Assembly (NCBI GenBank): GCA_020630715.1
Contig: JAHDIQ010000013.1
Coordinates: 1 to 32,101 of the forward strand
DNA: 32,101 bases
Direction: 5' to 3'
From: Nonlabens sp.
GTDB taxonomy: Bacteria > Bacteroidota > Bacteroidia > Flavobacteriales > Flavobacteriaceae
The notes beneath the pieces are model-generated. The model ran no database searches, was not told the DNA's origin, and was given only the letters and a program-made list of their open reading frames with translations. Shown here in pieces: positions 1 through 9,937 of the stretch. The translations under genes and the position numbers were made by a program. Each line of letters begins with the position of its first letter. The stretch's first letter is position 1.

Positions 1-53
1 TTTGATTTTAGTGAATCCTAAAGATACTCGACAGGCTGCTTTTACATAGATGC

Positions 54-171
54 TATAAAAAATTGCTATTAAGTGTTTAATCCATTGGTTTTTTTATATA
101 TTTAAGGTTACAACAAAACCGAAAATATTGCGCTTTTTACACGCAACTTTTCATATACAAGAACGTTACCT
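54..171 (+). repeat. attC-like site 0, left end degraded
   Basis: The right half (GCAACTTTTCATATAC, six bases, then GTT at 165-167) pairs with the left half TATAAAAAATTGC (54-66). It shows the same two A/C mismatches in the stem as the other sites. The interior, TTAAGTG.TTAATCCA then AAACCGAAAA, is clearly homologous to attC-like site 1. The left outer arm (about 40-53) no longer matches, and no AAC box is found at the expected place, so this site is probably decayed on the left or its upstream neighbour was lost. Confidence 0.6.
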
Positions 172-343
172 GCAAGCGAATCCAGCCACACAGTCAAGCA
201 CATTTCATTTTGCTCGTACCTCACAAAACAAAAAGAGCTTGCCTTTTCCCAACGCTTAATCCGAACAAAAATCAGAATTAAATAGGAATTTAAAAAAATG
301 TCCGTAAATTTGTCCGTGTACGTAAAAACGTCCGTAAATAATT
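165..343 (+). promoter_or_regulatory. Leader of the R-M cassette with GTCCGTAAA iterons
   Basis: This is the noncoding leader of cassette 1. Near the methyltransferase start are four related decamers: TGTCCGTAAA at 299, TGTCCGTGTA at 311, TGTACGTAAA at 317 and CGTCCGTAAA at 329. Starts are 12 bp apart (299 to 311, 317 to 329). The ATG follows at 344. Direct repeats this close to a start suggest an operator. Because the encoded protein begins with an integrase arm-type DNA-binding domain, whose known targets in integrases are short direct repeats, autoregulation is a reasonable inference. The rest of the leader shows nothing else recognisable. Confidence 0.45.
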
Positions 344-2551
344 ATGGCAACAATTAATTTTTATTTAGACAAGGCTGACAAAAAAGGGTTCGCACCAATT
401 CATCTACGAATCAACTGCAACGGAAGTCAAGTTAAAATTTCAACTGGTAAAAAAATAGAACCGAAAAACTTCGATAAATCAAAACAAAAAGCAATTGGAT
501 TGTCTGTAGAATCACACGAAATCAATCATTATTTGGATTTTCTAAGAGAACGAGCAGATGAACTTCTGCACCATTCCAACAAAAAGACTTTTATTCAAGA
601 CGAAGTTAAAAGCGTTTTAAATGAACACATAGAAAATTATAAAGAAAATAGTAATGTAAATATTGTAAAAGAACAGGTTTCGCTTTACGGAAAACCATTC
701 ACTTTTGTTGATTTATTTGCAGGAGCTGGTGGTTTTAGTGAGGGATTTTTACAAGCTGAACATAATAACAAATTCTTTGATTTTGTAGTAGCTAACGATA
801 TAAATGAAAATTGCGAACTCACTCACGTTGTTCGTTACAATCATCAATTGGGTTTAGATGCTAAATTTCTCCAACAAGATATTACTGAACCAGACTTTTT
901 AGACAATTTGTTAGAAAAAATAGATGGTCGAAAAATAGACGTTGTTTGTGGTGGACCACCTTGTCAAAGTTTTAGCCTTGCAGGAAAAAGAAAGAAATTC
1001 GACAAAAAAGACGACTTATTTTCTCATTATTTAGAAGTCATTAAGGTTTTACAGCCGAAATACTTCATAATGGAAAATGTAAAAGGCATTTTAACAAAAG
1101 AAAACGGTAAGATAAAAGAACTTATAATAAAAGAGATAAACTCTATTGTTGACATTAAAGAGATTCCTTCACTTACATCTTTTATAAAAAAGGTACGAGA
1201 TGAATCAAATTCTTTTCTATTTGACAGCATTATAAAACGTGTTGAACTTGAAAAGTTACTCGAAAAAGATAAAGAAAGCGGAAAAGCTGATTTTATCAAT
1301 TTTGTAGAAAATAGATTTAGAAAATTAACCCCAAAAATTGCAGATTACAAAACCAGTAAAACGGACGAGAATATAAATACTATTCGTCACGGCTTTAACC
1401 TTTTAGCGCGAGCGAAAGAATGGGAAAAACTGAAACGTGATATTATAAAAGAAAAAGACTTTTGCAATATTGATAGTGATAATTTTGTAAATGCTTTTAC
1501 TGATTTCCTAACAGAAATCAGTTCAGAAAATGTTATATCGAAAATTGAAAATGCTTTCAAAATCTTAAAAGTTCCAAATACTTATAAAAAAGATTGTGAT
1601 GACATCATTACTGCGTTAAAAATCTATACAACTTCTTTTGATGAGTCAATCGAGATATTAAAATCCCATTGCAATAAATCACAGAAAAAGGAATTAGAAA
1701 CTATTCTTGAAAGTATTAGACTTTACAAAATCGAAAAACCTTTTGTCGCTAACGCCTCAAATTATGGTGTTCCACAAAATAGAGAAAGAGTGCTTTTCAT
1801 TGGTTGTCGCAAAGACCAAAAATATATTTCTGAAATTCCTGCAACCGTTTCTGAAGAAGAAAAGGTTACCATTTTTGAAGCTTTGTATGATTTAGATTTT
1901 ATCGGTAACAATCAAGAAGCTCACCGATACGAATTAGTTGATATTTCAACTCAATACAATGGAACCGCAAAGAAAATGGCTAAACTTTTAAAGAAAAGAA
2001 AAATTGATGGAAAGCCAATTTCTAAAGGTGGAAAATCTTTTGCAGAATGGTCAAGAAAAGGTAGATTAATTCAACGTTTCAAACCTCAAACAAAACCTTT
2101 TTACGTAAGGAATACAGAAGCACTTGAAAATGGGGAAAAGTATTTCGACATACTCAATAATCACAAAACAAGTAATCAAAACGAAACAGTTATTGAGAGA
2201 CTTGGAGTTATTTTAAAAAATGGAGATTATAAAAAAGCGCAACCTGAATTAGAAAAATTAGGTCTTTCGACAAACAAGCGAAATTATAATGTTTTAAAAC
2301 CAGATGAACAAAGCTCTACAATAATGACCATCGCAGATGATTATATTCATTACAATTCGCCAAGGTCTTTAACAGTTAGAGAAATGGCACGTTTACAGTC
2401 TTTTGACGACTCTTTTGTATTTCAAGGGAAACGTTCAACAGGAGGAAATAATAGAAAAACGGAAGTGCCACAATACACTTTAGTTGGTAACGCTGTTCCA
2501 CCTTTATTAGCACGAGCAGTCGCAAGTGAAATTTTAAAACATATCAAGTGA
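344..2551 (+). CDS. DNA (cytosine-5) methyltransferase with N-terminal integrase-type arm-DNA-binding domain
   Basis: Modification enzyme of a restriction-modification pair, methylating cytosine C5 using S-adenosylmethionine. Motif I DLFAGAGG is at 123-130, motif IV GGPPCQSF at 203-210 with catalytic Cys207, motif VI ENVKG at 244-248, motif VIII NYGVPQNRER at 473-482, a target-recognition stretch at about 490-650, and RSLTVREMARLQSF plus YTLVGNAVPP (motifs IX and X) near the C-terminus. Two features are odd. Residues 1 to about 100 (MATINFYLDK, HLRINCNGSQVKISTGKKI) resemble the arm-DNA-binding domain that starts many Bacteroidota tyrosine integrases, but no integrase catalytic domain follows. 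About 215 residues, helical and charged, separate motifs VI and VIII, where a few dozen is usual. The stop overlaps the GTG start of the endonuclease by 4 bp. Target sequence is unknown; the CCWGG or CCSGG class is suggested only by the partner's family. Confidence 0.9.
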   Translation: MATINFYLDKADKKGFAPIHLRINCNGSQVKISTGKKIEPKNFDKSKQKAIGLSVESHEINHYLDFLRERADELLHHSNKKTFIQDEVKSVLNEHIENYKENSNVNIVKEQVSLYGKPFTFVDLFAGAGGFSEGFLQAEHNNKFFDFVVANDINENCELTHVVRYNHQLGLDAKFLQQDITEPDFLDNLLEKIDGRKIDVVCGGPPCQSFSLAGKRKKFDKKDDLFSHYLEVIKVLQPKYFIMENVKGILTKENGKIKELIIKEINSIVDIKEIPSLTSFIKKVRDESNSFLFDSIIKRVELEKLLEKDKESGKADFINFVENRFRKLTPKIADYKTSKTDENINTIRHGFNLLARAKEWEKLKRDIIKEKDFCNIDSDNFVNAFTDFLTEISSENVISKIENAFKILKVPNTYKKDCDDIITALKIYTTSFDESIEILKSHCNKSQKKELETILESIRLYKIEKPFVANASNYGVPQNRERVLFIGCRKDQKYISEIPATVSEEEKVTIFEALYDLDFIGNNQEAHRYELVDISTQYNGTAKKMAKLLKKRKIDGKPISKGGKSFAEWSRKGRLIQRFKPQTKPFYVRNTEALENGEKYFDILNNHKTSNQNETVIERLGVILKNGDYKKAQPELEKLGLSTNKRNYNVLKPDEQSSTIMTIADDYIHYNSPRSLTVREMARLQSFDDSFVFQGKRSTGGNNRKTEVPQYTLVGNAVPPLLARAVASEILKHIK

Positions 2552-3729
2552 GAAAACTTACAGACGAAGAACAAGAAAAAATAAAATTACTGACCAAAAA
2601 CCAAGTTTCTCTTACTTTAATTGAGCCAACCGAAACCGGATTGAAAAAATCCATTATGGATGCGACTGGTTCAGTTCGTAGCTATTTAAAAACTGAAAAC
2701 ATCCACGATTATGAATTGCAAAATCAAGGAACAGAAAGTAAAATAGTCATTCCAACAGTCATTCATACTGGATTTAAAACCATAAAGTCCAAAGCATCTT
2801 TGTATCGGCCTTTAACAAAAAAAGGAGACCCAAGAATTTGGTTTTATAGTTTAACAAAGGTTGCTGACCCAAATGATATAATAGCAATCACATATTTTAA
2901 CGATAATTTTCAGGTATTTAACTTGACAAAATTAGACATCCAAGAATTGATTAATTCTTCCATTCTAAATCCATTTCAAGAGTTAATTAATGCAATTAAT
3001 ACAACTGAGAACGAAGTCGCTTTTGAGCTTTTGGCTATGTTAAGAAAAATAGCAAATGCTGGTCCAATTCCTTCAATGGTTGAAGCTGACACTTCGGTTG
3101 GAAGAACACTTGAAACGGCACTCGGAATTGACATTAATTCCTCTAAACAACCAGATTATAAAGGAATTGAACTTAAATCATTTAGGAACAGCAGAACAAA
3201 TCGAAAAAATCTATTTGCACAAGTTCCAGATTGGAAATTAAGTAAATTTAAAAGTTCGGCAGAAATTCTTGATAATTTCGGTTATGAACGAGAAGATGAT
3301 TTTAAACTGTATTGTACAGTTTCGGCAATTACGAGAAACTCGCAAGGATTGAATTTAAGAATCGATAGTGATATTAAACAACTGATTGAAAACTCTGATA
3401 AACCAGAGGTTGGCGATTTTGTAGTTTGGACGTTAGACAAACTTCATAATCAACTAAAGTCAAAACATAAAGAGACCTTTTGGGTAGAAGCCGAAAGTAC
3501 CAGAATAAATGACCGAGAGCATTTTCAATATAAGTTGGTAGAACATACCAAAAAGCCAATCACTTCTCAATTTGATTTGTTAATTGAGCAAGGAATTATA
3601 ACACTTGACCATTTAATAAAGCGAAACTCAAAAGGAAAGGTTGTCGAAAAAGGTCCGTTATTTAAAATAAAACCGAAAGGAATTGAATTATTGTTTCCGC
3701 CAAGTGAAAGTTATAATTTAATGACATAG
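2548..3729 (+). CDS. MvaI/BcnI-family type II restriction endonuclease
   Basis: Restriction partner of the preceding methyltransferase. The diagnostic stretch GRTLETALGI, then PDYKGIELKS (residues 202-211), matches the PD-(D/E)xK active site of the MvaI/BcnI family, with Asp203, Glu208 and Lys210 as likely catalytic residues. MvaI (CCWGG) and BcnI (CCSGG) act as monomers that nick each strand in turn; applying this here is inference. The protein has 393 residues, longer than MvaI or BcnI (about 240), with an N-terminal region of roughly 170 residues I do not recognise. The start is GTG at 2548 inside GTGA, overlapping the methyltransferase stop, so translation is likely coupled. Both genes sit within one cassette. 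Confidence 0.8.
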   Translation: MRKLTDEEQEKIKLLTKNQVSLTLIEPTETGLKKSIMDATGSVRSYLKTENIHDYELQNQGTESKIVIPTVIHTGFKTIKSKASLYRPLTKKGDPRIWFYSLTKVADPNDIIAITYFNDNFQVFNLTKLDIQELINSSILNPFQELINAINTTENEVAFELLAMLRKIANAGPIPSMVEADTSVGRTLETALGIDINSSKQPDYKGIELKSFRNSRTNRKNLFAQVPDWKLSKFKSSAEILDNFGYEREDDFKLYCTVSAITRNSQGLNLRIDSDIKQLIENSDKPEVGDFVVWTLDKLHNQLKSKHKETFWVEAESTRINDREHFQYKLVEHTKKPITSQFDLLIEQGIITLDHLIKRNSKGKVVEKGPLFKIKPKGIELLFPPSESYNLMT

Positions 3730-3845
3730 CGGAATTGCCAACGCTGAAAGCCATACACATTTCCAGTCGCGCCATCCAAGCTACACCAAAACTGTAAAAG
3801 AGTATGTCTTTGCCAACGCTAGCAAGTTTGCGGAAAAACGCCAGC
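3730..3845. other. Noncoding 3' tail of the R-M cassette
   Basis: About 115 bases lie between the endonuclease stop and the attC-like site. They are more G+C-rich than the flanks and contain GCCAACGCT twice (3736 and 3811 areas). No gene or clear hairpin is seen; this may be debris of an older cassette junction. Confidence 0.3.
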
Positions 3846-3979
3846 CAGGTAACAACGTATATAAAAAATAGCGGTTTAAGTGCTTAATCCAAAGTGATTT
3901 TCATAAATTTAAAGCCAGTACTAAACCGAAAAGTTAGTGTTTAAAAATCCGCTACTTTTCATATACAACACCGTTGCCA
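3846..3979 (+). repeat. attC-like site 1
   Basis: Outer boxes are CAGGTAAC on the left and GTTGCCA on the right. After AAC plus three bases comes GTATATAAAAAATAGCGG. Before GTT and six unpaired bases comes CCGCTACTTTTCATATAC. The two arms form an 18-bp stem with only two mismatches (stem positions 7 and 12), both A opposite C on the top strand and therefore G-T wobbles on the bottom strand. The arms enclose a loop of about 80 bases homologous to site 0. Unequal spacers of 3 and 6 bases recall the unpaired central spacer of integron attC sites. Confidence 0.7.
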
Positions 3980-3991
3980 CCAATTTCAAAA

Positions 3992-4948
3992 ATGAACAGA
4001 CAATTAAAGAACATACTTATTGCAATTGGAATTCCAACTCTTTATGCAATAGTTTTAAGATTAGCTTTCGGAGTTAAAGATTGGAATGAATTATTTTCAG
4101 TAATGTCTGTTACATTCCTTTTTCTTCTTCCAACAATAGTCGGTGCATTAACCGTTTATCTTTCAGATAAAAATAAAGTTGAAAAACTATGGTATCGAAT
4201 TTTCACACCTTGGATTCCAATAATTTTATTTCTCATTATCACACTTGCTTTAGCAATTGAAGGTTGGGCGTGTTGGTTAATGATTCTTCCTGTTTTCTTA
4301 ATAGCTGCATCAATTGGAGGATTAATTGGAGGTTATTTAAAATTAAAAAGAAGAAATGACAGACTAAACATTTCGTTACTAATTCTTATTCCATTCCTAA
4401 TTTCACCAGTTGAACAATTAATTGAAAAGATTCCAGGAACATATAAAGCTTATACTTATATAGATATTAATTCAAGTGCTGAGAAAATCTGGGAAAATGT
4501 AACAAGAGTTAAAACGATTGAAAAAAATGAAGATACTGGATATTTGACAGAATTTTTGGGATTCCCAAGACCTTTAAAAGCTGAATTAAATTATAATGGA
4601 GTTGGTGCTTATCGAGAAGCAATTTTCACAAACGGACTAATATTCAGAGAAACCGTTACAGAATATGAGGAGAATAAGAAAATGGTCTTTTCAATTAAGG
4701 CTAATACTTACGAAATACCATCTACGACTCTTGACGAACACATTCTAATCGGAGGAGAATATTTTGATGTACTAAATGGGACATATGAACTTGAAAAACT
4801 TACTGAAGGAAAATATCGTTTACATTTATATAGTAATTTCAAAATGAATACAACTTTTAATTTTTATGCTGGTTGGTGGGGAAAAATAATAATGAAAGAT
4901 ATTCAAAACAATATACTGAAAGTTGAAAAGAAACGAGCAGAAGAATAA
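3992..4948 (+). CDS. Membrane protein with C-terminal SRPBCC (START-like) domain, cassette gene
   Basis: The N-terminal part (about 1-150) has four hydrophobic segments, for example ILIAIGIPTLYAIVLRLAF, VTFLFLLPTIVGALTVYL and WIPIILFLIITLALAI. The C-terminal part from YKAYTYIDINSSAEKIWENV onward fits an SRPBCC/polyketide-cyclase-like fold, a hydrophobic-ligand-binding cup. The ligand is unknown. I chose ATG at 3992; a TTG at 3974 is in frame but lies inside the GTTGCC recombination box, so it would change with each cassette exchange. It is the only gene of cassette 2. It has no visible promoter of its own, which is usual for cassette genes. Role unknown. Confidence 0.7.
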   Translation: MNRQLKNILIAIGIPTLYAIVLRLAFGVKDWNELFSVMSVTFLFLLPTIVGALTVYLSDKNKVEKLWYRIFTPWIPIILFLIITLALAIEGWACWLMILPVFLIAASIGGLIGGYLKLKRRNDRLNISLLILIPFLISPVEQLIEKIPGTYKAYTYIDINSSAEKIWENVTRVKTIEKNEDTGYLTEFLGFPRPLKAELNYNGVGAYREAIFTNGLIFRETVTEYEENKKMVFSIKANTYEIPSTTLDEHILIGGEYFDVLNGTYELEKLTEGKYRLHLYSNFKMNTTFNFYAGWWGKIIMKDIQNNILKVEKKRAEE

Positions 4949-4956
4949 AAAACTGG

Positions 4957-5090
4957 TGGCAACACCGTATATAATTTATTGCTGGCTTCTCGCCTACTTA
5001 CGAAAGTCCTCACGGACTTTCTTGGTCGGTAATTATTTACTAAATTAGTTGCTTAAGCCACGCAACAAACCATATACAAACACGTTATCT
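4957..5090 (+). repeat. attC-like site 2
   Basis: The left arm after AAC and ACC reads GTATATAATTTATTGC and then TGGCTT. The right arm, before six unpaired bases and GTT (5084), pairs with it at all but three positions (7, 8 and 12), all A opposite C on the top strand. The right arm also has one extra base next to TTGC, which would be extrahelical, as in integron attC sites. The loop holds the hairpin GAAAGTCC-TCAC-GGACTTTC (5002-5021). It is closely related to site 3. Confidence 0.7.
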
Positions 5091-5111
5091 ATAATTCAAA
5101 AACCAATCTAA

Positions 5112-6086
5112 TTGAAATTTTCAAAACCGAACATTTTGTATCTAATCAGAGTATTTTGTAGATATTATATTGCATATCAGATGTTTTCTTATGCATTTGC
5201 AAAAATACTTAAGTCACAATTTAATTTAGGCTTGTCATCAACTATTGATGAAAGTTTGAACAGTCTAAATGGACTTATGCTTACTTGGTACTACTATGGA
5301 TATTCTAGAACTTATGGTTTAGTCATCGCATTTACTCAGATTACAGCAGCTATTCTAATATTATTTAGAAAAACTGAACGAATTGGTATTGTACTTTTTT
5401 TGAGTTTTATGATAAACATATTGTTTATAAACTATTTTTATGAAATTGATGGAGCTAAATCAATGTCAATTAGGCTGACAATAATGGGTATCTTTTTATT
5501 ATTTTCTGATTGGAAAGCTTTTAAAAATTATTTCTTTAAATCAAATTTAAAGGAAAAATTAATCCCTAGTATTATTCCATTAAAAGTTAAAAATATTTAT
5601 TGGTTAAAATTTTTAATTATCCCATTCATTATATTTCATTCTTATAAATACATAACCGATATTAAAAAAGACTTTTTAGTTAAAAATGAACTTTTTGGAG
5701 TATGGGAAATAACACCTAGAAACTCAAATAATAGATTAGACAAATTATATATTGATTACGATAATGGAATAAAAGTCCGAGACACTTTAGATAATTTTTA
5801 CTACGGCGATTTAGAATTAAATAATAAAACTAAAACATTAAGTTTTAATGTACAACACTATTCTGATCGTGCTTATTATTTTATTGCAGATAGTATAGAT
5901 AAAATAGAAGTTGAGAAGGAAAAGATAAAAAGTATTAGAAAAGATATTAGAAACTTTTACAACAAAAAAAATAATTCTTTGCCGATAAAAATGGATTTGA
6001 ATTATAAATTAAAAGGAGATACTTTGATAATAATTGGAGAAAAAGAACATAAGTATTTGAATATAACAAAGGAATATAGGAACTAA
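5112..6086 (+). CDS. DoxX-like membrane protein with C-terminal soluble domain, cassette gene
   Basis: Single gene of cassette 3. Residues about 5-140 contain four hydrophobic segments in a DoxX-like arrangement (YLIRVFCRYYIAYQMF, TYGLVIAFTQITAAILILF, GIVLFLSFMINILFI, LTIMGIFLLFS). A fifth segment at about 165-180 precedes a polar region of about 145 residues that could be beta-rich (GVWEITPR, GDLELNNKTKTLSFNV). TTG at 5112 is taken as the start because it restores a full first membrane segment; the next ATG is 23 codons on and would cut it. Function is unknown; DoxX-like proteins are linked to respiratory or redox membrane processes, but nothing here specifies a substrate. Confidence 0.6.
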   Translation: MKFSKPNILYLIRVFCRYYIAYQMFSYAFAKILKSQFNLGLSSTIDESLNSLNGLMLTWYYYGYSRTYGLVIAFTQITAAILILFRKTERIGIVLFLSFMINILFINYFYEIDGAKSMSIRLTIMGIFLLFSDWKAFKNYFFKSNLKEKLIPSIIPLKVKNIYWLKFLIIPFIIFHSYKYITDIKKDFLVKNELFGVWEITPRNSNNRLDKLYIDYDNGIKVRDTLDNFYYGDLELNNKTKTLSFNVQHYSDRAYYFIADSIDKIEVEKEKIKSIRKDIRNFYNKKNNSLPIKMDLNYKLKGDTLIIIGEKEHKYLNITKEYRN

Positions 6087-6094
6087 AAAACTAT

Positions 6095-6227
6095 AGATAA
6101 CACCGTATAAAATTAATTGCTAGTTTCTAGCCTATTCACGAAAGTCCTCGCGGACTTTCTATCTGTGATTTATTTGCTAACTTTAGTGCTTAAATTACGC
6201 AACTAATCTTATACAAAAACGTTGTAG
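6095..6227 (+). repeat. attC-like site 3
   Basis: The left arm after AAC and ACC reads GTATAAAATTAATTGC. The right arm pairs with it at all but stem positions 7 and 12, again A opposite C on the top strand, and has one extrahelical base next to TTGC. The stem sequence differs from sites 1 and 2 but stays paired, so the arms have changed together. The loop carries GAAAGTCC-TCGC-GGACTTTC (6140-6159). The right box is GTTGTAG at 6221. Confidence 0.7.
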
Positions 6228-6251
6228 CACATTTAAACCAAACATTAAACT

Positions 6252-6944
6252 ATGGGATTATTTTTATCAATGTCCGGAATAATTGGAAAATCCGAAACGG
6301 AAGTTGAAAACTGCCTGCGAAAGTATGCGGAAAATAATTCTGGCGGATTAGAAAGTGCTGAACTCAACCATTTAGACGATAATTTCTGTGTAATAAGTGA
6401 AAATAAAAATAACACCGTAATATTCTATCCGTACGGATTTTTAGAATGGGATGATATTTCTATTTTCATTTCGGCTGAACTAAAATGTCCTGTTTTCTCA
6501 TTTCATATTCACGATGGCGATTTATGGATGTATTTACTTTATAACAATGGAAAAGTAATTGACCAATTCAATCCTATTCCAGATTATTGGGACGATAATT
6601 TGAGCGAAAAAGAAATCGCTGAACAAAAGGGAAATGCCAAATTGATTTCGGAATTGATACCAAACTTAAAAATTGAGGATATTGACAAATATCTCGTCAG
6701 ATGGAATTTAGAAGATGACGAACGGAAAGCGTATCCTGATGACGAATTTGAAAACATTGATTGGCAAGTAGTTGATTTTATGAAAAAAATTGGACTTGAA
6801 TATCCGATTGATGACTCGGACAAACCGAAAGGACAAGTATTTCGATTATGGACAAAGGAATTGAAAAAAGCAAATTCTGAACAGAAACCAATTAACTCGG
6901 AAAAGTCGAAAAAGAACAAATCTTGGTGGATATTTTGGGAATAA
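6252..6944 (+). CDS. Uncharacterised 230-residue cassette protein
   Basis: I do not recognise the family with confidence. The protein is acidic and soluble-looking, without signal peptide or membrane segment. It has a central conserved-looking stretch (FSFHIHDGDLWMYLLYNNGK, then FNPIPDYWDD, about 93-117), an acidic helical middle and a Lys/Ser-rich tail ending in WWIFWE. The HIHDGDLWMY region would be the place to look for family membership. It starts at ATG 6252, about 20 bases after the GTTGTAGCAC box, and is the only gene of the last unit, ending six bases before GTGCTACAAC. A role as an immunity or stress protein is possible but unsupported. Confidence 0.6.
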   Translation: MGLFLSMSGIIGKSETEVENCLRKYAENNSGGLESAELNHLDDNFCVISENKNNTVIFYPYGFLEWDDISIFISAELKCPVFSFHIHDGDLWMYLLYNNGKVIDQFNPIPDYWDDNLSEKEIAEQKGNAKLISELIPNLKIEDIDKYLVRWNLEDDERKAYPDDEFENIDWQVVDFMKKIGLEYPIDDSDKPKGQVFRLWTKELKKANSEQKPINSEKSKKNKSWWIFWE

Positions 6945-6959
6945 AAAACGTGCTACAAC

Positions 6960-7186
6960 AAAGAACTGAGGTAAAAAACAACAATTTCTTTCATTAATTT
7001 GAGACACTATTATTCTAGGCTCATAGATTCATTTGTTTGATTCTGAAGCTTTGTACAGTGCTACATTATATTTTTAACCTACGTAAACACATACCATCAC
7101 AATTCACAAATCATTTCACGTCTAGATTCCCTAATTTTGCACCACGAAAAAACAATCGAACGTAATACCAAATTTAGACTCAACAA
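6960..7186. other. Right junction of cassette region and popT leader
   Basis: The last unit ends with GTGCTACAAC at 6950-6959, but no GTATA arm or pairing partner follows, so the expected attC is missing. A flavobacterial -7-type box, TAATTTTG at 7132-7139, lies about 48 bases before the popT ATG, but no clear TTG box is found at the expected distance upstream. Nothing else is recognised. Confidence 0.4.
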
Positions 7187-8146
7187 ATGCCCTTAAAAAA
7201 CAACATTAGCACTGCTTTAAAAGGACTACTCATGGGCGCTGCAGACGTGGTTCCTGGAGTTAGCGGTGGAACGATTGCGTTTATAACCGGTATTTATGAA
7301 GAATTAATCACTACGATAGATAACTTAAACCTATCAGTAGTTAAAGAATTATTTTCAAACGGCGTTCTCAACACCATTAAAAAGTACAATCTTAATTTCT
7401 TGTTTTCATTGCTAGCAGGAATAGCGATTAGCATCATTAGTTTATCAAAGCTCCTTACCTATTTACTAAAAGCGCATCCTATTCTGGTTTGGGCATTTTT
7501 CTTTGGGTTAGTCCTTGCTAGTATTTTATATATCGCAAGACAAATTAAACGATGGAGCCTTGCCACTATCTCCATTATGACTGCAGGTGCTATCATCTCT
7601 TATTATATCACCATTGCAGAACCTCTTGCTTCTCCAGAAAGTTGGTGGTACTTACTATTATCTGGATTTATAGCAATCATTGCCATGATATTACCAGGAT
7701 TATCAGGTGCATTCTTGCTACTGTTATTAGGCAGTTATGAAGTAATTTTAGGTTCTATTTCTGGATTTTTTGAAGCATTAGTAGCAGGCGACTGGAACCA
7801 ATTTTGGGTTCATTTAAAAACCATTCTATTAGTTGCGACTGGAGCTATATTAGGTTTAAAACTATTTAGCAAGGCTTTACGCTGGTTGTTTAAAAACTAT
7901 GAAAACTACACACTAGCTGTGCTTACAGGTTTCATGATAGGATCACTTAATAAGCTGTGGCCATGGAAACTAGTGCTTAAAACTAGAGTGAATTCCCATG
8001 GCGAGGAAGTTCCCTTTTTAGAGCAATCCATACTACCACAAAATTTTCAAGGTGATACGCTTATTTTATCTGCAATCGGGCTTATGATTACAGGATTTTT
8101 ACTTATACTTATCTTAGAAAGAGTAGCCAGTAAAAAACAAGCATAG
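7187..8146 (+). CDS. popT: DUF368 family transporter (PopT-type undecaprenyl phosphate translocase), copy 1
   Basis: Multi-pass membrane protein of the DUF368 family, members of which (PopT) have been shown to recycle undecaprenyl phosphate across the cytoplasmic membrane for envelope polymer synthesis. The family signature is clear: MGAADVVPGVSGGTIAFITG at about residues 16-35, followed by IYEELI, with a second internal PGLSGAFLLLLLGSYE repeat in the middle, as expected for an inverted-repeat transporter. Its length of 319 residues fits the family. Its TAG stop shares one base with the GTG start of a second family member, so the two are probably cotranslated. Assignment of substrate is by family, not from residues seen here. 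Confidence 0.85.
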   Translation: MPLKNNISTALKGLLMGAADVVPGVSGGTIAFITGIYEELITTIDNLNLSVVKELFSNGVLNTIKKYNLNFLFSLLAGIAISIISLSKLLTYLLKAHPILVWAFFFGLVLASILYIARQIKRWSLATISIMTAGAIISYYITIAEPLASPESWWYLLLSGFIAIIAMILPGLSGAFLLLLLGSYEVILGSISGFFEALVAGDWNQFWVHLKTILLVATGAILGLKLFSKALRWLFKNYENYTLAVLTGFMIGSLNKLWPWKLVLKTRVNSHGEEVPFLEQSILPQNFQGDTLILSAIGLMITGFLLILILERVASKKQA

Positions 8147-9165: not shown

Positions 9166-9937
9166 TATTTTTGGACTTATAGGTAAACGTCTGGATTATA
9201 GCTTTTCAAAAGCCTATTTTACAGAAAAATTTGAGCGTATCAAACTGGATGATCATCACTACCGCAATTTTGAAATAGGTAGTGAGGAGGAATTATTACG
9301 CTTTCGCGAAAGCGTAATCTACAACAACCTCTCGCGCACTACAGACGGTAAACCTGAGATTTTAAGAGGCCTTAATGTTACGATTCCGTACAAAGAATCC
9401 ATCCTAGAAATTCTAGATGAAATTAGTGGTGAAGCCAAAGCAATAGGCGCGGTAAACACGATCACCATTGAGGATAATATCTGGACCGGTCATAATACCG
9501 ATGCGTACGGATTTGCAAAAAGTCTAGAACCACATCTACCTATTAAAGGTAACGCGTTGATTTTAGGAACTGGTGGCGCGTCAAAGGCGATTGCGTATAC
9601 ATTAGAAGCATTACAAATTCCGTATTTGTACGTATCCAGAACACCAACACCACAAGGTGATTATGAAATTCCGTATGATCTTGTGGATAAAGAACTACTG
9701 AAAGACATAGGCTTAATAGTCAATACAACGCCATTAGGCACTTATCCAGATGTGGATACTGCGCCAAATCTTCCTTATAAACATCTTCAAAAAGGAACCG
9801 TACTTCAAGATCTTACTTATAATCCTGCTAATACCCTATTCATGAAAAAAGGAACAATTCATGGTGCTGTTGCCATCAATGGTTACCAGATGCTGGTCCA
9901 ACAAGCAGAACGCGCCTGGGAATTATGGAATGAATGA
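9140..9937 (+). CDS. aroE: Shikimate dehydrogenase
   Basis: NADPH-dependent reduction of 3-dehydroshikimate to shikimate, fourth step of the common aromatic pathway. Substrate-site residues are visible: Ser21 and Ser23 (DYSFSKAYF), catalytic Lys85 (LNVTIPYK), Asn106 (GAVNT), Asp121 (HNTDAYGF) and the NGYQMLVQQ segment near the C-terminus. The nucleotide loop is GTGGASKA (143-150). The start at 9140 overlaps the upstream transporter; a few residues before FGLIGK exceed the usual N-terminus. A 24-bp genomic palindrome is embedded at 9295-9318 and encodes residues 52-60 (LLRFRESVI), in a region that looks about a dozen residues longer than in the flavobacterial AroE sequences I recall. The active-site residues are intact, so the enzyme is probably functional. 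Confidence 0.92.
   Translation: MASRQIPHSIFGLIGKRLDYSFSKAYFTEKFERIKLDDHHYRNFEIGSEEELLRFRESVIYNNLSRTTDGKPEILRGLNVTIPYKESILEILDEISGEAKAIGAVNTITIEDNIWTGHNTDAYGFAKSLEPHLPIKGNALILGTGGASKAIAYTLEALQIPYLYVSRTPTPQGDYEIPYDLVDKELLKDIGLIVNTTPLGTYPDVDTAPNLPYKHLQKGTVLQDLTYNPANTLFMKKGTIHGAVAINGYQMLVQQAERAWELWNE
9295..9318. repeat. Dispersed 24-bp palindrome, copy 1 (inside aroE)
   Basis: Perfect palindrome with core GCTTTCGCGAAAGC, flanked by ATTAC and GTAAT. It is read in frame as part of AroE. Other copies are at 17170, 23479, 23665 (degenerate), 25939 and 29845. Confidence 0.85.

Follow-up and report, generated by a model that had tools for sequence, protein, structure and literature searches.

Four consecutive units near the start of a contig from the flavobacterium Nonlabens sp. 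(assembly GCA_020630715.1) raise the question of whether a member of the Bacteroidota can harbour an array of integron-type gene cassettes and, if so, which enzyme would have assembled it. The stretch analysed, hereafter the window, comprises 32,101 nucleotides and represents the first 32.1 kb of contig C11 (JAHDIQ010000013.1) in a genome of 2.98 Mb distributed over 17 contigs. A first-pass annotation, made from the letters of the window alone, had described the units as an integron-like cassette array in a chromosome without an integrase. On comparison of sequences, they are very probably cassettes of a Bacteroidota system that resembles the integron, in which a XerA-like recombinase would capture circular cassettes at a G/TT point.

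The four units follow one another in the same direction on the + strand, at positions 165 to 6959 of the window (165-3853, 3973-4963, 5084-6101 and 6221-6959), each beginning with GTT and ending with AAC. The reverse-complementary ends that had been noticed at first are present over 8, 10, 10 and 10 nt in units 1 to 4, with a sequence particular to each unit (GTTACCTG/CAGGTAAC, GTTGCCACC/GGTGGCAAC, GTTATCTATA/TATAGATAAC and GTTGTAGCAC/GTGCTACAAC, respectively). Beyond the fixed GTT and AAC, 5 + 7 + 7 + 7 end bases match, the chance of which is by our arithmetic about 4^-26, or 2e-16, at fixed positions. Homologous foldable elements had also been proposed between the units, and three complete sites of about 122 nt are found there on the + strand, all of which fold as hairpins: attC-like site 1 (3844..3982, also delimited as 3851-3975), which combines the R'' box of cassette 1 with the R' box of cassette 2 and was placed by alignment and fold; site 2 (4954..5093, also delimited as 4961-5086), with a computed energy of -31.4 kcal/mol for the bottom strand of its circular form; and site 3 (6092..6230, also delimited as 6099-6223). 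Their matches to a covariance model of the site, R1, amount to 113.3, 116.5 and 118.5 bits (E 5e-19 to 5e-20), sites 1-3 having helped to build the model that then scored them. When the bottom strand of site 1 is folded with the start of its chromosomal neighbour, 8 of 200 shuffled sequences fold as well.

The same pairing of ends is seen well beyond the window. Among 268 units between adjacent sites in 25 loci, for which 297 of 305 model matches were used (three of those omitted were cut by a stretch end), the ends pair over at least 7 nt in 236, compared with 242 of 4204 mismatched combinations of start i and end j from the same locus, and with 24 of 296 cases when both R boxes are taken from a single site as it stands in the chromosome. 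The paired ends are mostly 9-10 nt long. Consistent with a stem that is completed by the cassette itself, the R stem closes (at least 7 of 10 bases) with the cassette's own start in 232 of 235 cases and with the start of the chromosomal neighbour in 52 of 235. The first-pass annotation had read the ends as RYYYAAC and GTTRRRY halves, and as a rule this signature fails: GTTRRRY opens only 29 of 235 paired units, or 11 of 104 distinct starts. In locus L091 (genome G141), five units start with the same GATGGAACACATTC and differ in their ends, perhaps reflecting an undetected site or an element at the start.

The sites themselves display an attC-type architecture, with complementary R''/R' and L''/L' boxes, a spacer and a variable terminal structure. 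Alignment of 14 sites from six genomes, 10 of which were used to build R1, gives a consensus fold of 13 pairs, 8 of them with compensatory changes. The spacers measure 3 nt between R'' and L'' and 5-6 nt between L' and R', with the longer spacer on the L'-R' arm in 14 of 14 aligned sites; of the three window sites checked for single extra bases, sites 2 and 3 carry one on this arm and site 1 has none. The bottom strand is the more stable in 229 of 235 sites, with mean computed folding energies of -26.4 versus -22.7 kcal/mol. No known RNA family in Rfam matches window positions 1-7200 up to an E of 1.

A covariance model run on the own and related genomes had been suggested as a check. With R1, at E<=1e-4, sites turn up in 171 of the 199 Flavobacteriaceae genomes (the own genome included); a sample of 296 genomes from across the phylum gives 68 with sites, of which 50 lie outside the family; and none of 46 genomes assigned to other phyla by their record titles has any. 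Counts per genome are lower bounds, at most 17 candidates having been scored per genome in the family and at most 11 in the phylum. The own genome holds nine sites at E<1e-5, on contigs C1, C8 and C11, and the longest array, in genome G113, comprises 79 parsed sites in three adjacent 20-kb stretches (60 kb). All parsed sites of any one locus lie on one strand (25 loci), and the longest open frame is on the array strand in 167 of 172 cassettes.

The claim that the array has no integrase holds for the window itself and fails for the genome. The best match to an integron integrase in the own genome is a 280-amino-acid tyrosine recombinase on the 7-kb contig C7. On the opposite strand, 106 nt from its start codon and directly after TTATACACTA, at an attI-like junction, begins a cassette whose ends pair over 9 nt and whose cargo is an HpaII-type restriction-modification pair (RE_HpaII, 470.6 bits); it is followed, shortly before the contig end, by AACGTAT, the beginning of a site. 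Contigs C7, C8 and C11 each end inside a site. Relatives of the C7 recombinase are encoded at E<=1e-30 in 146 of the 199 family genomes, and most are longer, at about 375-420 residues, with an extra N-terminal domain. Across 16 aligned relatives, R134, K159, H223, R226, H249 and Y258 are invariant, and these we take to be the catalytic residues of a tyrosine recombinase, which on sequence are present in the enzyme beside the arrays.

A recombinase bearing the patch specific to the integron integrase IntI had been named as a thing to look for, and no gene of the own genome exceeds the TIGR02249 cut-off of 265 bits. The C7 enzyme scores 191 bits and lacks the insert: its match to the model falls into two pieces that skip the positions between 180 and 243, and against IntI4 (2a3v) chain residues 202-248 face only six residues of the query (199-204). 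In a quick tree of 74 rows with unresolved deeper order, five IntI proteins form one clade without flavobacterial rows (Shimodaira-Hasegawa-like approximate likelihood ratio test 100). By profile, sequence and predicted fold, the nearest known enzymes are recombinases of the XerA type (NF040815; 5hxy, 4a8e), a family that NCBI names 'site-specific tyrosine recombinase/integron integrase'; its cut-off is passed by three of five flavobacterial proteins and missed by the C7 enzyme by 5 bits. The solved members, in contrast, are Xer enzymes, and we know of none beside cassette arrays. The predicted fold of the long relative at locus L109 (mean predicted local distance difference test 83, predicted template-modelling score 0.56) is likewise nearest to XerA (5hxy) and IntI4 (2a3v).

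The N-terminal domain of the long relatives resembles known domains only faintly. HARP matches one of 10 members with a best E of 9e-5; in a check of 16 members, HARP matched two (best 0.0014) and DUF5710 four (best 0.0044). Foldseek returns XPB with a probability of 0.91-0.94 at E 0.1-0.16 and the HARP domain of SMARCAL1 at rank 14 (probability 0.25), and a profile search of PDB sequences gave matches at chance level. With a likeness this weak, the name HARP was dropped. A 428-residue integrase beside the array on contig C8 was also set aside as the enzyme of the system, as it heads an apparently separate mobile element and scores 32.6 bits with TIGR02249. This likely element (L011:2585-8001) begins about 110 bp from a cassette site, suggesting insertion at or next to the array. 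A decayed system may be represented by locus L165 (Flavobacterium sp. UBA7663): its recombinase, related to the C7 enzyme (57% in the best segment), has in-frame stops, and the locus contains no site.

The association of this recombinase type with arrays was gauged on 27 integrases taken in roughly score order from the list of relatives at E<=1e-30 (20 + 7, down to the entry of genome G075), for which neighbouring sites were not known beforehand; the set left out integrases with less than 2 kb of contig downstream (except locus L222) and loci already fetched, some of these for known sites. Sites at E<=0.01 lie beside 23 of the 27, 150 in all, with 148 of them downstream on the integrase strand at 22 integrases and two upstream of a divergent one (L242); 11 control stretches of the same genomes (220 kb) contain none. 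At 22 loci chosen for having sites (L008 and L051 left out), the first unit begins 26-149 nt from the integrase gene in 20, its ends pair over at least 8 nt in 21, and in most a TATA-like box precedes the first GTT, as judged by eye. From its position, a putative attI-type site lies beside the integrase gene, and the first cassette starts there. A palindrome of 20-26 bp is also visible by eye just before the first GTT at L082, L089, L103, L105 and L109, perhaps a binding site for the recombinase or a regulator. Array and integrase gene are co-directed in 17 of the 22 loci and divergent in five (those of four short recombinases, and L108), and for most long recombinases the array lies downstream of the integrase gene. 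L242 (genome G132) and L108 depart from this: both encode long-type recombinases (open frames of about 358-366 residues), and their arrays are divergent and lie upstream. Array orientation therefore does not simply follow recombinase length.

Comparison of arrays indicates that cassettes are exchanged exactly at G/TT. Genomes G157 and G163 share an 850-bp unit with 92.6% identity end to end and unrelated upstream sequence; the homology starts at G|TT and covers the gene together with some 120 bp of site, up to the following G|TT, and in G113 the gene is kept with a different site. The first cassette after the integrase in G157 is a 100% copy, site included, of a cassette that lies 16 kb deeper in the array; upstream it adjoins integrase-proximal sequence rather than a site, as expected for insertion at attI. 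Two other genera, represented by G078 and G132, also have cassette 2 of the window, with identical ends and at 73.9% DNA identity, the copy in G132 being followed by the end of an insertion sequence. The moved copies compared in G157 and G163 carry the downstream hairpin and not the upstream one, and on these grounds both transposons with terminal inverted repeats and the reverse polarity, on the minus strand, with the site before the gene, were rejected.

On the chromosomal flank of the window's array lies a gene for an integral membrane protein (7187..8146, + strand), presumably DUF368-like. In 13 of 14 loci of sister species, its homologue directly follows purA at a distance of about 38-255 bp with no site between, and the fourteenth locus is a contig end; by gene order, the sister species present the chromosomal locus without an array. 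In the own genome, purA and this gene are on different contigs, each beside an array: purA (L183, C1:152887-154491) is on contig C1, where a cassette site, then a cassette and then an IS110 remnant come after it.

In the mechanism that these features suggest, the XerA-like tyrosine recombinase (280 residues on C7) would capture circular cassettes by joining the hairpin site of the cassette to the attI-like site beside the integrase gene, or to the site of another cassette, with a cut at G/TT. The circular form would bring both ends of the unit side by side and so complete the hairpin stem, which would explain why the complementary ends are each unit's own. The substrate would be a folded single strand, presumably the bottom one by its computed stability, and the array in the window may have been filled in trans by the C7 enzyme. 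The cutting would be done by the recombinase beside the arrays.

Judged by these sequence features, the system works like an integron, and on those tested it falls outside the IntI integrons. With the IntI-attI-attC systems, including the sedentary chromosomal integrons, it shares the polarity of GTT, gene, R'' and site, the exchange at G/TT, the cassette-specific complementary R ends, the folded site with a more stable bottom strand, the attI-like site by the integrase gene, and arrays of tens of mostly same-strand genes with restriction-modification systems and unknown genes as cargo. It differs in its recombinase, which lacks the IntI-specific insert, stays below the TIGR02249 cut-off, falls outside the IntI clade and is mostly extended at the N-terminus. 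The paired ends are mostly 9-10 nt long and mostly not GTTRRRY; many arrays are downstream of and co-directed with the integrase gene; and it is the L'-R' arm that has the extra bases, while PMC2727003 defines the extrahelical bases of attC as those of the R''-L'' arm. The integron-cassette reading of the first-pass annotation is retained in view of the exchange at G/TT, the dedicated recombinase beside arrays and the array-free sister loci, and the GTTRRRY signature is given up as a rule.

Several observations weigh against this interpretation. The recombinases stay below the cut-off of the integron-integrase family, with TIGR02249 scores of 186-209 bits in six flavobacterial proteins and 430-486 bits in five true IntI. 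No site was found at L220, L222 (with 181 bp of contig after the integrase), L225 and L238 among the 27 integrases. Relatives of the recombinase were also followed in 83 named stretches, made up of 80 genome loci and three plasmids, and a site at E<=0.01 occurs in 12 of these, among them those of Seonamhaeicola aphaedonensis, Algibacter onchidii, Winogradskyella ursingii and, with weaker matches, Flavobacterium aciduliphilum and Algoriphagus ornithinivorans; many of the site-less stretches represent other recombinase types or phyla. The part of the window's contig that was seen holds no integrase. Some of the sites behind R1 had been found by this same pattern, such that matches of the model are not independent of it, though the controls are. 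Thirty-two of the 268 units lack paired ends of at least 7 nt, two more distant relatives of the cassette 2 protein (in G117 and G127) have no paired ends at that spacing, and the cassette 4 protein has no relative at E<=1e-10 in the 198 other family genomes. The recombination events are inferred from comparison of sequences.

The window array considered alone, with at least two sites and no integrase in the window, would fit the label of a cluster of attC sites lacking integron-integrases (CALIN), and an ordinary CALIN of a canonical integron, with a patch-bearing IntI elsewhere or lost, would share the cassette logic, the polarity and the G/TT point. CALINs are also common in known genomes according to the survey results in PMC9024848. 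This explanation is nevertheless improbable: the own genome has no gene over the TIGR02249 cut-off, a different recombinase lineage stands beside the arrays, and the starts rarely follow GTTRRRY. Taken more widely, the genome has a matching recombinase on contig C7, the contig of the window starts inside the array, and contigs C7, C8 and C11 end inside sites. An equally improbable account accepts the sites as real and has the housekeeping XerC/XerD or another recombinase act on them, the neighbouring gene being a passenger; the neighbour is indeed Xer-like in sequence, and the own genome has XerC- and XerD-like genes, yet the neighbour keeps all catalytic residues and heads the array in the 22 site-selected loci, and among the 27 cases picked without regard to sites it has them alongside in 23. 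Least credible is the proposal that the hairpins are passive repeats, either terminators or repetitive extragenic palindromic (REP)-like, between which units move by homologous recombination, since the mutual resemblance of the sites and the duplicated units within arrays would suit it, but the unit-specific complementary ends, the boundaries that fall precisely on G|TT where an unrelated attI-like sequence adjoins, and the one-strand arrays beside one recombinase type are left unexplained.

The integron-like system of XerA-like recombinase and captured cassettes is best read as an integron variant of Bacteroidota that would have escaped the surveys published so far. A bolder proposal, for which the case seems to us evenly balanced, is that Bacteroidota possess an integron class of their own apart from IntI, whose recombinases never had the IntI insert, whose extra N-terminal domain (with a weak likeness to the domains of HARP and XPB for DNA-structure recognition) in most members reads the folded site instead, and whose site asymmetry mirrors that of attC. 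If so, an integron could do without the IntI insert, and in most of a family the cassette pool would have escaped surveys in which the insert is a requirement.

As summarized in PMC9024848, the Bacteroidetes of an earlier survey had only In0 elements (integrases without cassettes), to which one complete integron, that of Salinibacter ruber, was then added. Other accounts name Bacteroidota among the phyla with integrons (PMC8618304, PMC9668308) or report intI in the Bacteroidetes/Chlorobi group and select integrases by the patch (PMC2426708). The insert is described as essential, though not fully conserved, in an integron-like subgroup (PMC8138268), and the attC models set out in PMC8352920 cover 11 taxa, none of them Bacteroidetes. 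The suspicion that such arrays may be little-studied gains support, as no paper on them was found in searches of an open-licence library. A single site type in 171 of 199 family genomes stands against this published near-absence of integrons in Bacteroidetes; it would add a large mobile gene pool of restriction-modification systems, membrane proteins and unknowns in a widespread bacterial family, and would allow the purpose of the IntI insert and of attC's extrahelical bases to be tested on a natural case.

The array in the window is now cut at both ends by a site-targeting insertion sequence. Positions 1..55 (+ strand), where contig C11 starts, have an exact counterpart in contig C8, namely the first 55 nt of its end when read in reverse complement. 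Beyond this stretch the two contigs diverge, each into an attC-like site of its own; a repeated insertion sequence, probably an IS110-family element, would therefore have split both. Sites 0 to 3 had been listed together, and site 0 is ruled out as a complete site, as its left part is this insertion-sequence end common to contig C8: only the distal part (L' side) remains, at 56..167 (+ strand) up to the GTT of cassette 1, with an R1 match at 43-167 of 48.6 bits (E 4.8e-6 in the own genome). At the other end, the last AAC (6957-6959) is followed by AAAGAACTGAG and an IS110-family remnant (6960..7045, + strand), with the same sequence after AAC in other arrays of the own genome; the AAC|AAAGAACTGAG junction follows several different cassette ends in six genomes, namely the own genome and G091, G001, G113, G131 and G132. 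A coding remnant by another copy of AAAGAACTGAG in the own genome matches annotated IS110-family transposases, and the IS110-family name stands under the match in 7 of the 10 plasmid records listed from 11 that match. The own assembly yields no PF02371 match that would mark an intact IS110; only remnants were read. PMC11187229 describes insertion sequences of the IS1111 type, such as ISKpn4 and ISPst6, by which attC sites are targeted at one end, and here too an IS110/IS1111-type element occupies a constant point at one end of cassette sites. It differs in lying directly after the R''AAC of another site type, in Flavobacteriaceae, and in being recognized from remnants only.

The cargo of the four units, all on the + strand, is of the kind found in cassette pools. 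Cassette 1 with its site (165..3972) encodes a DNA cytosine-5 methyltransferase (344-2551; PF00145, 187.6 bits) and an MvaI/BcnI-type restriction endonuclease (2548-3729; PF15515, 270.6 bits). Cassettes 2 (3973..5083 with site) and 3 (5084..6220 with site) each encode a membrane protein, at 3992-4948 and 5112-6086, respectively, judged as such by eye and without a match above any family cut-off; for the cassette 3 protein, no Pfam or NCBIfam match was found at E<=0.01. Cassette 4 (6221..6959), which has lost its site, encodes an orphan protein (6252-6944). After its AAC, this last unit has the IS110-family remnant in place of a site.

The cytosine methyltransferase of cassette 1 (344-2551) bears an N-terminal Arm-DNA-bind_5 domain (32.8 bits), a domain familiar from integrases. 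On a Flagellimonas plasmid (L093:10816-11649, NZ_CP092416.1), two cassette-type sites (E 7e-14 and 1e-3) flank a gene of the dihydrofolate-reductase family; nearby are a gene with the annotation erm(F) and one for a recombinase related to the short type. Downstream of the array in the window, a stretch of about 40 bp at about 9290-9330 recurs many times across the own genome and those of sister species, and may be, by eye, a TTTCGCGAAAG-type palindrome.

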